Below the pieces are notes generated by a model that saw only the letters and a program-made list of their open reading frames with translations, had not been told where the DNA came from and did no database searches. The position numbers and the translations under genes were made by a program. From Halosolutus gelatinilyticus (GTDB lineage: Archaea; Halobacteriota; Halobacteria; Halobacteriales; Natrialbaceae), in assembly GCF_023028105.1 (NCBI RefSeq), contig NZ_CP095492.1, forward strand, positions 496,001 through 560,000: a stretch of 64,000 nt of DNA, read 5' to 3'. Shown in pieces: positions 4,272-57,039 of the stretch (position 1 is its first letter; each line of letters opens with the position of its first letter).

Positions 4272-4548
4272 TAGATAACGCAGTAGTATTTCCTAGTGTT
4301 ACCTTCGATATTTGCGAAACACGGTCGTCGATGTCGTTTCATTCTCGCTGTGCGGCGTACGATAGGGGCGGTGCGGCCGGTACGGGACGTACGAGACTCG
4401 TCCGTACCGTCTACCACCGGACCCATTCCGAAGCGGTCCCGTTCGTACGACGCACTCGCATCGGCTGCTGACGCCGTTCGGATGCTCGGGGAGCATCGTG
4501 GACGAAGCGGTCCGTATCGCGAGTTTGCCGACCGGACGGACGGTGCCT

Positions 4549-17934: not shown

Positions 17935-18702
17935 CTACGCGAGCGCGAGTTCGAGTTCGTACTCGGTGACGATCTCCGTAACCGTGTCGGCGAGTCGTTG
18001 CTCTTCGTCGGGGTCAGTGAACAGATGTTCCGGACCGGTGATGCTGAACCCGCCGATCACATCACCCGATCGTTTGGTCGCCGCGACGCCGATTCCGTGG
18101 AGTTCCCGGAAGTTCTCGGCGTGGTTGACGGCGTAGCCCTGGTGACGGATCTCGGCGAGTTCGTCGAACAGCGTTTCTCGGTCCGTGATCGTGTTCTGCG
18201 TCTCCTCCGGCATTCCCCATTTATCGAGCGTCTGCTCGGCCCGCAATCGAGGGAGTTCGGCGAGTATCGCTTTCCCGACGGCGGTGTTGTGGAGATAGAG
18301 TCGATTTCCGAGCTGCTCGTGGGTCCAGCCCATCTTGTTCCCCGACGCCGTGTGGACGAACACGGCTCTCCCGTCCATCTCGACGGCAAAGATCGACCTG
18401 AGTCCTAGCTCCTGGTACAGTCGCTCCGTGAATTCGCGCGCAAGGACGAACCCCTCTTCGCGAGTCCGGACCTGATTCCCCAACCGCAGCAGTTCGGGAC
18501 CGAGGTGGTAACAATCCCCCTGTTTGAACAGGAAGCTCGCCGATTCGAGGGTCGCGAGGTGGCCGTGGATAGTACTCTTCGGCGTCTCCATCTGGTCCGC
18601 GATCTCGGAGACTCTGGCGCCGTTCAGCTCTTCGACGAGTTCGAGGATCTCTATCGACGTGGCGGTTGTCCGGAGTTTTTTCGAGTCGCGTTCTCGGGCC
18701 AT
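17935..18702 (-). CDS. IclR-family transcriptional regulator (IclR-3)
   Basis: A 255-residue IclR protein. The winged helix spans about residues 8-70 (SIEILELVEELNGARVSEIADQ, recognition part PKSTIHGHLATLESASF). The effector domain has YLHNTAVGKAILAEL and HQGYAVNHAEN. It starts at ATG 18702, preceded at 24-29 bases by a TATA box abutting a motif 2 palindrome. Upstream lies 930 bases of gene-free DNA with three motif 1 sites and two further motif 2 sites, shared with a divergent Gfo/Idh/MocA gene, its most likely target. Confidence 0.9.
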   Translation of the reverse strand: MARERDSKKLRTTATSIEILELVEELNGARVSEIADQMETPKSTIHGHLATLESASFLFKQGDCYHLGPELLRLGNQVRTREEGFVLAREFTERLYQELGLRSIFAVEMDGRAVFVHTASGNKMGWTHEQLGNRLYLHNTAVGKAILAELPRLRAEQTLDKWGMPEETQNTITDRETLFDELAEIRHQGYAVNHAENFRELHGIGVAATKRSGDVIGGFSITGPEHLFTDPDEEQRLADTVTEIVTEYELELALA

Positions 18703-18725
18703 ACGCGGAAAATGGCCGCCACTGT

Positions 18726-18731
18726 AATAAA
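18726..18731 (-). promoter_or_regulatory. TATA box for IclR-3
   Basis: TTTATT on the minus strand, 24-29 bases before ATG 18702, directly abutting a motif 2 palindrome. Confidence 0.5.
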
Positions 18732-18748
18732 GTTCGTGATAACCGAAC
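18732..18748. promoter_or_regulatory. Motif 2 palindrome at the IclR-3 promoter
   Basis: GTTCG-TGATAAC-CGAAC is a perfect 5-bp inverted repeat with a 7-base spacer. It covers the BRE position of the IclR-3 promoter, as expected for autorepression. Confidence 0.55.
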
Positions 18749-19061
18749 GCCGATCGATCGGATTTTCCGTCACGACCAGGGCCCAGTTCCCGAATCGTCG
18801 GCCGCATCGATCGCTCCGAGGAGCGGATCGCGTCATCGAGATTACCGGACGCTCGCGTCACGCCTCCTCCGAACTACGCCTCGGAAGTCCGAACCAGGGC
18901 TACAGGTCGGACGCAATCCCGACGCCGGCCCGTGACGATGGCGCGAACAGTATCTACACTACTGTCCGTGGTGACCGTTCCGTCACCACCCCCCCGAGCG
19001 AGACCTCGAAGGGGCGCGTACTCCACGATGCAAGCGGAGAGTTCTGCACACTCGGTGATAA

Positions 19062-19080
19062 GGTTCGAGATACTGGAACC
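19062..19080. promoter_or_regulatory. Motif 2 palindrome in the IclR-3 hub
   Basis: GGTTCGAGATACTGGAACC matches the copy at 19446-19464 in 17 of 19 positions, with GGTTC/GAACC arms. It lies 17 bases before a motif 1 site. Confidence 0.5.
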
Positions 19081-19097
19081 GCACGTGACTCGGATGA

Positions 19098-19117
19098 TTA
19101 CAGTTGTACGCTCGTAA
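19098..19117. promoter_or_regulatory. Motif 1 palindrome, copy 3
   Basis: TTACAGTTGTACGCTCGTAA fits the consensus, and the flanking A and T extend the arms. Confidence 0.6.
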
Positions 19118-19341
19118 TGGGCGCCGTCGTTCGGTGCCCTCGATGCGATCCCGATTCCGAGTCCAGCGGAGCAGATATACCGTCGAAGCGCCGTGGAGAC
19201 CAAAATGCGTCCTCTGCCGAGTCGTCGAACGCGGTCCGTAAACGGGCAATACTCGACCCGTCCGCCCGCCCGACGGACGATACCGCCGATCGGAGACGCC
19301 AGCACCGATCATATTCGAACATTATATTCCGATCGCAGTCG

Positions 19342-19361
19342 TTACGAACGTACGGTCGTAA
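19342..19361. promoter_or_regulatory. Motif 1 palindrome, copy 4
   Basis: TTACGAACGTACGGTCGTAA is a TTACG/CGTAA version with central GTAC. It is 36 bases (start to start) from copy 5, close to integral helical turns. Confidence 0.6.
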
Positions 19362-19377
19362 ATGACTCCACTTTTAT

Positions 19378-19397
19378 TTACATTCATACAATCGTAA
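19378..19397. promoter_or_regulatory. Motif 1 palindrome, copy 5
   Basis: TTACATTCATACAATCGTAA. The flanks give a 7-bp inverted repeat TATTTAC/GTAAATA (19375-19400). It differs from the 31370 copy at only three positions and overlaps a TATA-like element. Confidence 0.6.
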
Positions 19398-19445
19398 ATA
19401 GCGTGAACGAGCGCCGATATCATCCGAGATGCGCGCGCCGGTGAC

Positions 19446-19464
19446 GGTTCGAGATATTCGAACC
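19446..19464. promoter_or_regulatory. Motif 2 palindrome in the IclR-3 hub
   Basis: GGTTCGA-GATAT-TCGAACC is a perfect 7-bp inverted repeat, the best motif 2 copy in the window. It is 168 bases before the Gfo/Idh/MocA start. Confidence 0.55.
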
Positions 19465-19601
19465 TTATTACTACGGATCGCCGGCCCCGGACGAGTCCCG
19501 ATCGTGTCGCATGCCGAACGCTCGATATGGGGCGTCTCGGCGGTTCTGACCGATAGGTCGTGACAGGGACAACTCACAAGAAAGTGACCGAAACCATTAC
19601 T

Positions 19602-19609
19602 TTCATATA
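19602..19609 (+). promoter_or_regulatory. TATA box for the Gfo/Idh/MocA gene
   Basis: TTCATATA lies 23-30 bases before ATG 19632, giving a leaderless transcript. Confidence 0.5.
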
Positions 19610-19631
19610 CCGTCTCGGATGATTCCTGATC

Positions 19632-20738
19632 ATGCGACCGAAGATCGGTTACGTCGGCGTAGACCACCACCACCGCGATCCGTACTTTACGATCGCCGGC
19701 GGGCTCGGCCTCGACATCACGAGCGTCTGCGAGCCGGGACGCGAGATCGACCTCGCCGAACTCACGGCGATGGACGACCGGCCCGACGAGATAACGACGG
19801 AGGGCGGCAACGTAGCAGACCTCGTCTCGGATGCGACGGCGTACGCGGATCCGCACCGCTTGGTCGAAGAGGGGGATATCGACGTCGTCTGGATCACGTA
19901 TCGGAGCGACGAAACGCCCGCGATCGTCGATACCGCGGTCGAAAACGGCGTCCACGTCGTTAGCGAGAAGCCGATTGCGCGGACCGCCGCCGACCTGGAG
20001 GAGATCGCGACGCGCGCGAACGAGGCGGGTGTCACCGTTTCGCCGACGCTGTACTATCGGACGAATCCCGTCGCGATGGAACTGCGAAACCGGGTCCGTG
20101 ACGGCTTCTTCGGCGACGTCTGGACCGTAGAGGGGCGCTTCAACGCCAGTCAGCTCTCCTATCGGGATACCGACCATTATCTCTACGATCGGGCGACGAG
20201 TCGCGGCGGCGCCCTGCAGTGGATCGGCCCGCACTGGGTCGACGTGATGCCGTGGATACTCGACGACCCGATCGCGCGGGTGAACGCACAGTTTCACGAG
20301 GCCGAGGAGGCCGACGTCGACGCAGGGGCCGTCCTCCAGTTCGAGACGGAAGACGGGACGCTGGGAACGTATCACACCGGCTACTACCTGAGCGACCGCG
20401 GAAAGGACACGCACTTCGGCCTCTACGGGACGGATGCGCAGGCCCTGACGCCGCTGCACCACGACTCGCTCCAGCACGAACCGACGATTCCCCTCGAGAT
20501 CACGTCGGCGGATCCCGAGTGGTCGGCCGCGCCGAAGCAGACCACAGCGTTCGAGTTCACTTACGATCGCTTCCCGGCCTGGGGCGATTTCGTCTACGAT
20601 TACTTCGAAGCGTATTTCGACGGATACGAGACGGGAGACGTTCCCGCGACGGTCGACGACGCGGTCCAGCTCCTCCGGGTTCTCGACGCAGCGTACGAAT
20701 CCGCCGAGCGGGACAGCTGGGCCGAGGTCGCCGACTGA
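19632..20738 (+). CDS. Gfo/Idh/MocA-family NAD(P)-dependent sugar oxidoreductase
   Basis: A 368-residue protein with an N-terminal Rossmann domain (KIGYVGVDHHHRDP) that lacks the usual GxGxxG loop, and a C-terminal alpha/beta substrate domain. EKPIAR near residue 115 carries the conserved Lys of the family EKP motif. GGALQWIGPHWVDVMPW near 195 carries a candidate catalytic His after a GG(A)L(x)(D/Q) block. The family oxidises or reduces sugars and inositols. The HHH cluster in place of GxGxxG makes cofactor preference hard to predict. It is monocistronic, opposite IclR-3 across the regulatory hub. Confidence 0.8.
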   Translation: MRPKIGYVGVDHHHRDPYFTIAGGLGLDITSVCEPGREIDLAELTAMDDRPDEITTEGGNVADLVSDATAYADPHRLVEEGDIDVVWITYRSDETPAIVDTAVENGVHVVSEKPIARTAADLEEIATRANEAGVTVSPTLYYRTNPVAMELRNRVRDGFFGDVWTVEGRFNASQLSYRDTDHYLYDRATSRGGALQWIGPHWVDVMPWILDDPIARVNAQFHEAEEADVDAGAVLQFETEDGTLGTYHTGYYLSDRGKDTHFGLYGTDAQALTPLHHDSLQHEPTIPLEITSADPEWSAAPKQTTAFEFTYDRFPAWGDFVYDYFEAYFDGYETGDVPATVDDAVQLLRVLDAAYESAERDSWAEVAD

Positions 20739-27919: not shown

Positions 27920-29290
27920 TCAATCGTTACTCGGCCCGTCACGCGCGGCCGACTCGCGGGGCGACGGCGCCGCGAAGTCGCCCGATTCGAATTCGATCGG
28001 CGAGGGCTCCTCGATCACCCGAAGGTCCTCGCGCTCGCGCGCCTCCTCGACGAGCGCCGTCGAGGCGTAGAGGTACTGGAGGTGCATGGTATCCGGCGCG
28101 CGGACGACCCGGACCGTCTCGGGATCGACGATGCCGATGGTCGACAGCGCGGCGATGAGGCCCGCACGGTCAGTTTCAACGGCCGGCGGGAGGCGGACAC
28201 CCCTGGTCGTGCTCGCCGTCAGCGCGTTGATGAGCGTCGTTGGAATGTCGATCTCCTGAAGCAAGTCCGCGTGGACGAAGTCGGCCGACCCCATCCCCAT
28301 CGCGTTGCCGTGGGTCGTCTCCGTCAGGCCGCGCGTGTAGATCCGCTTGATGACGGGGAGGTCCGGCTCCGGCTCCTGGATGGCGAACGGACGGCGACCG
28401 ATGACGTTCGTGTCCATCCCCTGGCCGCTGATATCCTTTCCCTGGGAGTCGAGGACGAGCACGTCGATATCCTGAAACGGAAGCGTCGGCATACAGTCGT
28501 AGGCCCGCTCGAGGAGCTCCTCCTCGCGGTCGAGGAACCCCGACGGCGGCACCCCTTCGAGGAGGGTCGTGTCGTCGCGCTGATCCTCCAGAATCGCGAC
28601 GCCGCCCGCGACGGGCAACTCGTCGAGCAACTGCTCGGTGATTTCGGGGATCATGTTCCGGAGCGACCAGTCGACCGCCCAGTCGTGGGCGATCTTCGCC
28701 CCGCGCTGTTTGCCCATCCCGATGACGAGCATCTTCGAGAGGCCGCTCTCTACGGTGCCGTCGAAGTCGGTGTGCGGTTTGACCCGGTTTATGGGCACGA
28801 TGGCATCGGCCGAAACGGCGTTCGCGTCGGCGACGACCGGGACGTCGCGATCGGCGGTCCGGCCGACTTCGACGACCGCCATGCTCGAGCGGATCTCGCA
28901 GCCGACGGTCGACTCGTCGACGCCGAGGTCGGCCAGCATCTCGCGTTGCCCCTCCGCAGTGGCCCCGCCGTGGCTGCCCATCGCCGGGAACACGAACGGC
29001 TCGTAGCCGCGGTCTTGCGCTTCGTCGACGACGCCGGCGACGATCGTAGCGAGGTTCGCGATGCCGCGGCTGCCGACGCCGAGCGCGATCTCGCCGCCGT
29101 CGGGGACGGTTTCGAGGGGCAGCGATGCGAACGCCTCTCCCGCGCGGTCGGCGATCTCGTCCGGCGGTATCGGGTTCGTCTCCCACACTTGCTCGATCAC
29201 GCCAAGCTCCGGGAGGGGCGTTTCGCCGCACGCCTCGCTGATCGACGCTTCGGGAACTGCCAGTGAACGTCTCGATGGGTTCGAATCCAT
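27920..29290 (-). CDS. LarA-like DUF2088 protein (lactate racemase-domain family)
   Basis: A 456-residue protein of the family whose best known member is nickel-dependent lactate racemase LarA. It has VGSRGIANLATIVAGVVD near 80, GSHGGATAEGQ near 115 and VKPHTDFDGTVESGLSKMLVIGMGKQ in the middle. The latter is typical of a LarA-N paralogue branch rather than true LarA, so racemisation is not established. ATG 29290 is chosen over the long frame back to 29395 because a TTTATC box lies 25-30 bases upstream. It diverges from the FAH-family gene. Confidence 0.75.
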   Translation of the reverse strand: MDSNPSRRSLAVPEASISEACGETPLPELGVIEQVWETNPIPPDEIADRAGEAFASLPLETVPDGGEIALGVGSRGIANLATIVAGVVDEAQDRGYEPFVFPAMGSHGGATAEGQREMLADLGVDESTVGCEIRSSMAVVEVGRTADRDVPVVADANAVSADAIVPINRVKPHTDFDGTVESGLSKMLVIGMGKQRGAKIAHDWAVDWSLRNMIPEITEQLLDELPVAGGVAILEDQRDDTTLLEGVPPSGFLDREEELLERAYDCMPTLPFQDIDVLVLDSQGKDISGQGMDTNVIGRRPFAIQEPEPDLPVIKRIYTRGLTETTHGNAMGMGSADFVHADLLQEIDIPTTLINALTASTTRGVRLPPAVETDRAGLIAALSTIGIVDPETVRVVRAPDTMHLQYLYASTALVEEAREREDLRVIEEPSPIEFESGDFAAPSPRESAARDGPSND

Positions 29291-56554: not shown

Positions 56555-57039
56555 GCCGTCCCGATCGCCATCGGCCGAAGATAGCTCGCACACGGTCACC
56601 CTCTTTTCGGGGCCATCTGATCGCTCGTTCGCGCCGACCGATCCCTCGGTTCGTTGCCCGGCCGATCGTTTCGGAGGTCGAAACACCGGGGCGAACGAGC
56701 GGTCGATTACAGTGATACGACTGTAATTCGACGGCGATCAGCGCGCGGAACGGGCGGAAAACGGCGCCACTGTTTCGGTGGTCGAAACGCGACTGGGAAT
56801 CGGTGGCGTTCGAGAACGGCCAACGCGACAGGGGCCGTCGCCGGCCGCGAACGGAATCTCGAACGACGGGAAGAGACGAGCCTCGATCATCGGTTCCGTC
56901 ACAGGGATGCGGCCAGCGCGTTTCGGCAGTGGTCCGTGGAACGAGGACGGCGCGATCGGTTCGACGACCGCAACCGCAGGTCGACGTGTTGGGTCCGTCC
57001 CCGAACGCGAGCTATCGACGAACCGCGCCGCGGCGCCGA
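56555..57039. other. Convergent intergenic with motif 1 palindrome
   Basis: These 485 bases lie between the 3' ends of the deacetylase and the DgoD-like gene. No gene is seen. A motif 1 copy lies at 56707-56726, away from any known promoter. Confidence 0.5.
56707..56726. promoter_or_regulatory. Motif 1 palindrome, copy 8
   Basis: TTACAGTGATACGACTGTAA; with its flanks it forms ATTACAGT-N6-ACTGTAAT, the most perfect copy (8-bp arms). It is 3' of both neighbouring genes, so it may regulate an unseen transcript or the deacetylase end. Confidence 0.55.

Follow-up and report, generated by a model that had tools for sequence, protein, structure and literature searches.

A predicted two-regulator promoter hub in a haloarchaeal catabolic gene cluster, with IclR-3 and RdfA as candidate binders of its palindromes

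The hub and its palindromes

The window, i.e. the whole 64-kb stretch of DNA analysed here, sits on a 562-kb contig (C2) of a haloarchaeal genome of 4.76 Mb (G000). Within it the hub (18703–19631) separates the gene of an IclR-type regulator, IclR-3, on the left (17935–18702, minus strand; Pfam IclR_C 9e-27, HTH_IclR 3.8e-8) from that of a Gfo/Idh/MocA oxidoreductase on the right (19632–20738, plus strand, assigned with Pfam), which we consider as the target gene. Gene calls and start sites are computed, and both genes are predicted to be leaderless, IclR-3 starting at 18702. After the oxidoreductase come an ABC transporter, with an ATPase closest to the nitrate/taurine type, and a glycerate-kinase-like gene. 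The oxidoreductase has orthologues of 75–84% identity, and orthologues of most of the cluster are grouped in relatives, including a second oxidoreductase, a nickel-pincer isomerase and an FAA hydrolase; the gene order around the hub varies among these relatives. The gene at 27920–29395 matches the model NF052515 of nickel pincer cofactor-dependent isomerases above cut-off, so that the label of aldehyde dehydrogenase is wrong; its product is more than 80% conserved beside oxidoreductases in relatives, with a DUF362 protein there in some annotated ones.

The hub had been predicted to be free of genes, and we come to the same view. Its open reading frames lack coding character (GC3 0.54–0.63 and Arg 15–22%, against 0.77–0.84 and 6–8% for the two flanking genes), no Rfam family matches the window at gathering score, and in two annotated relatives no gene lies in the corresponding interval. 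A decayed gene was also considered and discarded: the DNA similarity to relatives stops at the starts of the flanking genes.

Six palindromes reported in this interval are all present in the sequence, far above chance expectation. Those of motif 2, GTTCG-N7-CGAAC, have their cores at 18732–18748, 19063–19079 and 19447–19463; those of motif 1, TTAC-N5-TA-N5-GTAA, lie at 19098–19117, 19342–19361 and 19378–19397. Motif 1 occurs 8 times in the window for 0.00 expected from shuffles, and GTTCN9GAAC 10 times for 2.1 expected; three of these ten copies fall inside the 0.93-kb hub, where ~0.03 would be expected. To the six we add a fourth, degenerate motif 2 with its TATA at 19304–19328, absent from the original prediction. 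A chance cluster, or the debris of a rearrangement, would agree with the differing gene order near the hub, but motif counts so far in excess of the shuffles, together with a spacing conserved across many genera (see below), make this explanation almost negligible.

Motif 2 and the adjacent regulator

A search of the genome contigs with one IclR protein as query returned no relative, and an alignment of five sequences gave 11 close haloarchaeal ones; orthologues are present in many genera. For 15 of 16 orthologues at least 8 of the 10 core bases of motif 2 are found 46–47 bp upstream of the ATG, the 16th being weaker; 2.9% of shuffled upstream regions reach the same score. In these orthologues the CGAAC half directly precedes TTTATA-like DNA. 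As CGAAA and TTWT are the proposed BRE and TATA of haloarchaea (PMC4983044), the operator would overlap the BRE. The same layout is seen in the window, where the predicted operator of the IclR-3 promoter (18732–18748, minus strand) adjoins the TATA box TTTATTAC (18724–18731, minus strand), an element shared by the orthologues. This copy is the more divergent across 19 bp and keeps the GTTCG..CGAAC core. The full 19-bp motif 2 has only two exact matches in the genome, both in the hub, and eleven others with 3 mismatches.

From sequence we take motif 2, with near certainty, as the predicted operator of the neighbouring IclR-3, and the earlier choice of this protein for footprinting was apt. Its position, the known haloarchaeal IclR activators and the argument made for CsmR (discussed below) lead us to infer activation rather than repression.

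Motif 1 and RdfA

Whereas the original prediction treated both motifs alike, motif 2 is local and motif 1 genome-wide. Motif 1 (consensus TTAC(A/G)N3 RTAY N3(T/C)GTAA) has 53 sites in G000, whereas its reversed control has none, and it is common across the family. Every one of the 50 mapped sites is intergenic. The genes that they face include those of sulfatases, enolase-superfamily enzymes, dehydrogenases, solute-binding proteins, a rhamnogalacturonan lyase and one rdfA, and the majority of the sites are at catabolic genes. We found no description of motif 1 in the accessible literature on XacR, TrmB, GfcR and haloarchaeal promoters.

Two side observations concern the distribution of the sites. 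The window holds six IclR genes (4498, 10478, 17935, 31553, 49090 and 55031), of which five have a motif 1 at ~0.5 kb or less and the remaining one at 1 kb or less. A double TTAC site, spaced by exactly 50 bp, is shared by G109 and Haloarcula japonica (L192, 4229/4279; L193, 3901/3951), between genes resembling those of a substrate-binding protein and an acetolactate synthase; TTAC sites are otherwise nearly absent from H. japonica.

The predicted motif 1 protein of G000 (C1:2172617-2173195) is an RdfA, named for rod-determining factor A: it matches PF21811 with E 1e-74 and 251.9 bits, for a curated cut-off of 27. Three genomes possess no more than one or two motif 1 sites (G011, G110 and G106), and in each a site adjoins rdfA, with an SMC-like gene coming after it. 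Motif 1 flanks the rdfA-sph pair on both sides in G000 and G106 (L054, 2266 and 5293; L196, 2909 and 5661).

We collected RdfA genes by means of PF21811 and counted a motif site when it lay at most 400 bp away. Among the 68 genes compared, 23 have no site within this distance, and the other 45 have a 20-bp palindrome of either the form TTAC..GTAA or the form TAAC..GTTA. The form fits residue 117 of the protein in every case: TTAC..GTAA for 30 of 30 genes with His117 and TAAC..GTTA for 15 of 15 with Tyr117. The chance of this split is 1 in C(45,15), ~3e-12, if relatedness is ignored, and because independent His/Tyr switches are few, fewer events stand behind the 45/45 match than this count suggests. 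Nevertheless two motif-label changes are needed on the RdfA tree, where the starred branches force two, so that the rule linking residue and motif spans more than one switch, though the events are few. Some of the rdfA loci were chosen for a nearby TAAC site, a selection in which residue 117 played no part. This residue was spotted by eye and the alignment columns were ranked later: it is the only one that separates the two labels perfectly, 121 being second. In the AlphaFold model of RdfA (mean pLDDT 88) both residues belong to helix 117–127, which comes after helix 107–112. These helices are predicted to form a helix-turn-helix-like pair, with 117 as the first residue of the recognition helix.

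The same correspondence appears at the scale of genomes and of orthologous hubs, whose motif form tracks the RdfA type present. TTAC and TAAC sites number 53 and 1 in G000, which has a His-type RdfA, and 0 and 16 (G122) or 1 and 6 (G095) in genomes with the Tyr type. In two Haloarcula, with Tyr-type genes, they number 2 and 17, and 5 and 22; G150 also has a His-type gene, whose own site is TTAC. G076 has both types of RdfA, with 48 TTAC and 5 TAAC sites, and the TAAC sites of its hub lie ~5.5 kb from a Tyr-type rdfA gene. Different forms are likewise carried by rdfA paralogues of one genome (G011, G076, G026). In the family of G000, represented by 37 genomes, an rdfA gene is found at 300 bp or less from 17 out of 37 TAAC sites.

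Motif 1 is therefore most likely, on sequence grounds, the operator of an RdfA-family protein. Two other binders have to be considered. IclR-family paralogues could share motif 1, so that the hub would be purely IclR-controlled: the more IclR candidates a genome has, the more motif 1 sites it tends to have (rho 0.83, and 0.67 allowing for genome size), and 21 of the 50 mapped sites are within 1 kb of an IclR gene. However, the motif 2 of the orthologues stays constant while motif 1 of the same hub switches form by lineage, and where a genome has just one or two sites, one of them is beside rdfA, which renders this idea very unlikely. Alternatively another global regulator could bind motif 1 and count rdfA-sph among its targets, RdfA itself not being the binder. 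The location of most sites at catabolic genes agrees with it, and so does the structure search with Foldseek, which gave no confident relative of RdfA, DNA-binding or other; no solved structure of a homologue was found either. But such a regulator leaves unexplained why the motif form goes with one RdfA residue, in a predicted recognition helix, for 45 genes out of 45, and why paralogues of the same genome differ in form, so that we hold it for unlikely. We thus retain RdfA as the candidate motif 1 protein.

Architecture of the hub

In relatives the two motifs form a module: a motif 2 with its TATA, then motif 1 at 39 bp, then a second motif 2 with TATA at ~67 bp (start-to-start distances), both TATA boxes being on the same side and both motif 2 units in the same direction. 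It is found at orthologous loci of five Haloferax, two Haladaptatus and Halostagnicola larsenii (G036), somewhat degenerate in Halegenticoccus, and with the TAAC form of motif 1 in two Haloarcula and G122. Haloarcula marina, inspected afterwards, shows spacings of exactly 39 and 67. At the Haloferax loci (L090–L095, ~4380–4530) the module precedes a gene of ~700 aa with a Tat-like signal, not an ABC transporter.

The module of the window is a variant, in which the left motif 2 is degenerate and motif 1 is doubled. We located this left motif 2 through the conserved spacing of 39 bp: it occupies 19304–19328 (plus strand), with a CGAAC half-site at 19316–19320 followed by the TATA-like ATTATATT (19321–19328). 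The first motif 1 (19342–19361) and the second of the doublet (19378–19397), 36 bp further, come next; then the right motif 2 at 19447–19463, 69 bp from motif 1 (65–69 in relatives, mostly 67), with its TATA CTTATTAC at 19464–19471 (plus strand). The left pair is an extra unit in the opposite direction to the module. It associates a leftward motif 2 (19063–19079) and its TATA TTATCAC (19055–19061, minus strand) with the motif 1 at 19098–19117, a predicted RdfA operator by its counts and rdfA linkage.

Taking the 46–47 bp between motif 2 and the ATG of the leaderless IclR gene as a ruler, with an offset of 46 bp, we predict internal promoters with starts at ~19033 (leftward), ~19350 (rightward, inside motif 1) and ~19493 (rightward). 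The opinion that the interval contains more than a divergent promoter needs is thus shared by us, a two-regulator hub with extra promoters being likely. On the other hand the transcript proposed from ~19400 loses its support, since the motif 2/BRE/TATA units predict other starts. The TATA-like stretch invoked for it does exist (TTTTATT, 19371–19377) and abuts a motif 1 site without any CGAAA-type BRE.

Internal promoters could also mean that the hub encodes a small RNA or a small protein. Between the motif 2/TATA units and the next start codon that they face there are indeed ~140–330 nt of non-coding DNA, and haloarchaea rarely have long leaders, 72% of their coding transcripts being leaderless (PMC4983044). 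This is countered by the Rfam result and the lack of coding character given above, and by the resemblance of the hub DNA to that of relatives only at the starts of the two flanking genes; we find such a product rather doubtful, and keep to promoters under two regulators.

The hub had moreover been described as nearly mirror-symmetric about 19.26 kb, as a sign of looping. There is a 27-nt inverted repeat (19055–19081 and 19445–19471, 78% complementary, centred at ~19.263 kb), made of motif 2 and TATA in opposite directions, but the symmetry is partial, because the motif 2 at 18732 belongs to the IclR gene's own promoter and motif 1 has one copy on the left side but two on the right. Nor is it evidence for looping, because the two motif 2 units of the relatives point the same way. 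Looping may still occur, for another reason: the gene of RdfA, which is predicted to act on motif 1, neighbours that of an SMC-like ATPase.

Elsewhere in the window the 39/67 geometry recurs at one further hub, with a different palindrome. There (56668–56788) the motif 1 at 56707 is flanked by GTTTCGGAGGTCGAAAC at -39 and GTTTCGGTGGTCGAAAC at +65, which conform to a 17-bp palindrome GTTTCG-N5-CGAAAC, another presumed IclR operator, in the same geometry. At the scale of the genome, 29 IclR-like palindromes of 17 bp lie near motif 1 in G000, against 3–11 for other widths; the excess is weaker in G025 (11 against at most 6) and in Haloarcula (5 against at most 3), and there is none in G026. The pairing being strong only in G000, we do not claim this layout for every motif 1 hub. 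A TATA at constant distance from all motif 1 sites was searched for and none was found.

Proposed function

The motif statistics, the conserved spacing, the linkage of motif 2 to IclR and the covariation of RdfA residue and motif are computed. On these sequence features we propose that the hub is probably a two-regulator promoter hub of a catabolic gene cluster, with motif 2 as the IclR-3 operator and motif 1 as the RdfA operator. The oxidoreductase's own promoter, with a TATA region at 19601–19610 (plus strand) in upstream DNA similar among relatives, has no motif 2, which counts against this reading.

IclR-3 would act on motif 2, each copy of which overlaps the BRE just upstream of a TATA, the usual place of archaeal activators; these units would serve IclR-3 itself and the internal promoters in both directions. 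An RdfA-family protein, encoded elsewhere beside the SMC-like Sph, would act on ~50 mostly catabolic hubs. In the module, motif 1 covers the predicted left start, and 47 bp separate its end from the right motif 2; RdfA, if bound there, should therefore obstruct the left promoter while modulating the right one. The overlap suggests repression at the left start; the distance of 47 bp is compatible with cooperation, competition or bridging. It is in this sense that we infer binding, activation or repression, and transcripts at the hub. A local substrate input, through IclR-3, would thus be overlaid by a global one, through RdfA, reflecting growth state or cell shape. Carbon use and cell shape may plausibly be linked, since RdfA and Sph3 are required for the rod shape of Haloferax volcanii, delta-sph3 forming only disks (PMC10869688, 2024). 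The literature is in conflict about Sph3, elsewhere reported as promoting the plate shape (PMC13286277, 2026).

More tentatively, and with less chance of being right than wrong, RdfA-Sph might be a sequence-specific DNA-binding protein with its SMC-like ATPase, occupying motif 1 at the ~50 catabolic hubs and bridging these hubs or loading SMC-like complexes on them. If so, it would couple promoter control to the rod/disk cell-shape programme, perhaps together with replicon folding, and the three motif 1 sites of the hub would be one RdfA-Sph anchor. The data predict RdfA as a DNA-binding regulator with an operator, genome-wide sites and a link to catabolic genes. They also predict a one-residue specificity code, His117 with TTAC..GTAA and Tyr117 with TAAC..GTTA. 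The hub itself would show, within a short interval, how one local and one global regulator are combined at fixed spacing on promoters of archaea, the sites of a whole regulon switching form between lineages.

Comparison with known systems

The haloarchaeal IclR-type catabolic activators XacR, RhcR, GacR and MscR share with IclR-3 the position of the regulator gene beside the catabolic and ABC-transporter genes that it presumably controls, and activation is the published norm for haloarchaeal IclR proteins (PMC11519228). We found no operator sequence for these four in the literature examined; by comparison the predicted operator of the hub is readable from sequence, in several copies fused to BRE/TATA, and the hub adds a second predicted operator, a global one, at fixed spacing.

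The bacterial PcaR/PcaU-type IclR operators read GTNCG-N5-6-CGNAC (PMC8222616). The half-sites GTTCG and CGAAC of the three main copies and of the orthologues resemble them, as do the adjacent operon and the predicted autoregulation, for in 16 orthologues, one with a weak match, motif 2 lies at the promoter of the regulator gene itself. However, the window and the orthologues alike have a 7-bp spacer, not 5–6, so that motif 2 is like this operator group without being a strict member of it. CsmR of H. volcanii has the operator TATCA-N4-TGATA, whose position was read by the authors as that of an activator (PMC13286277). The likeness is that of a palindromic haloarchaeal operator upstream of BRE and TATA, but in sequence and length it differs from both motifs of the hub.

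RdfA, at last, was described with the SMC-like Sph (HVO_2174/HVO_2175) as a rod-shape factor (PMC10869688). The protein of G000 belongs to the same family, PF21811, and the SMC-like gene after rdfA in G011, G110 and G106 recalls the same pair. Beyond this description, the DNA binding, the operator and the catabolic regulon of RdfA are new predictions.
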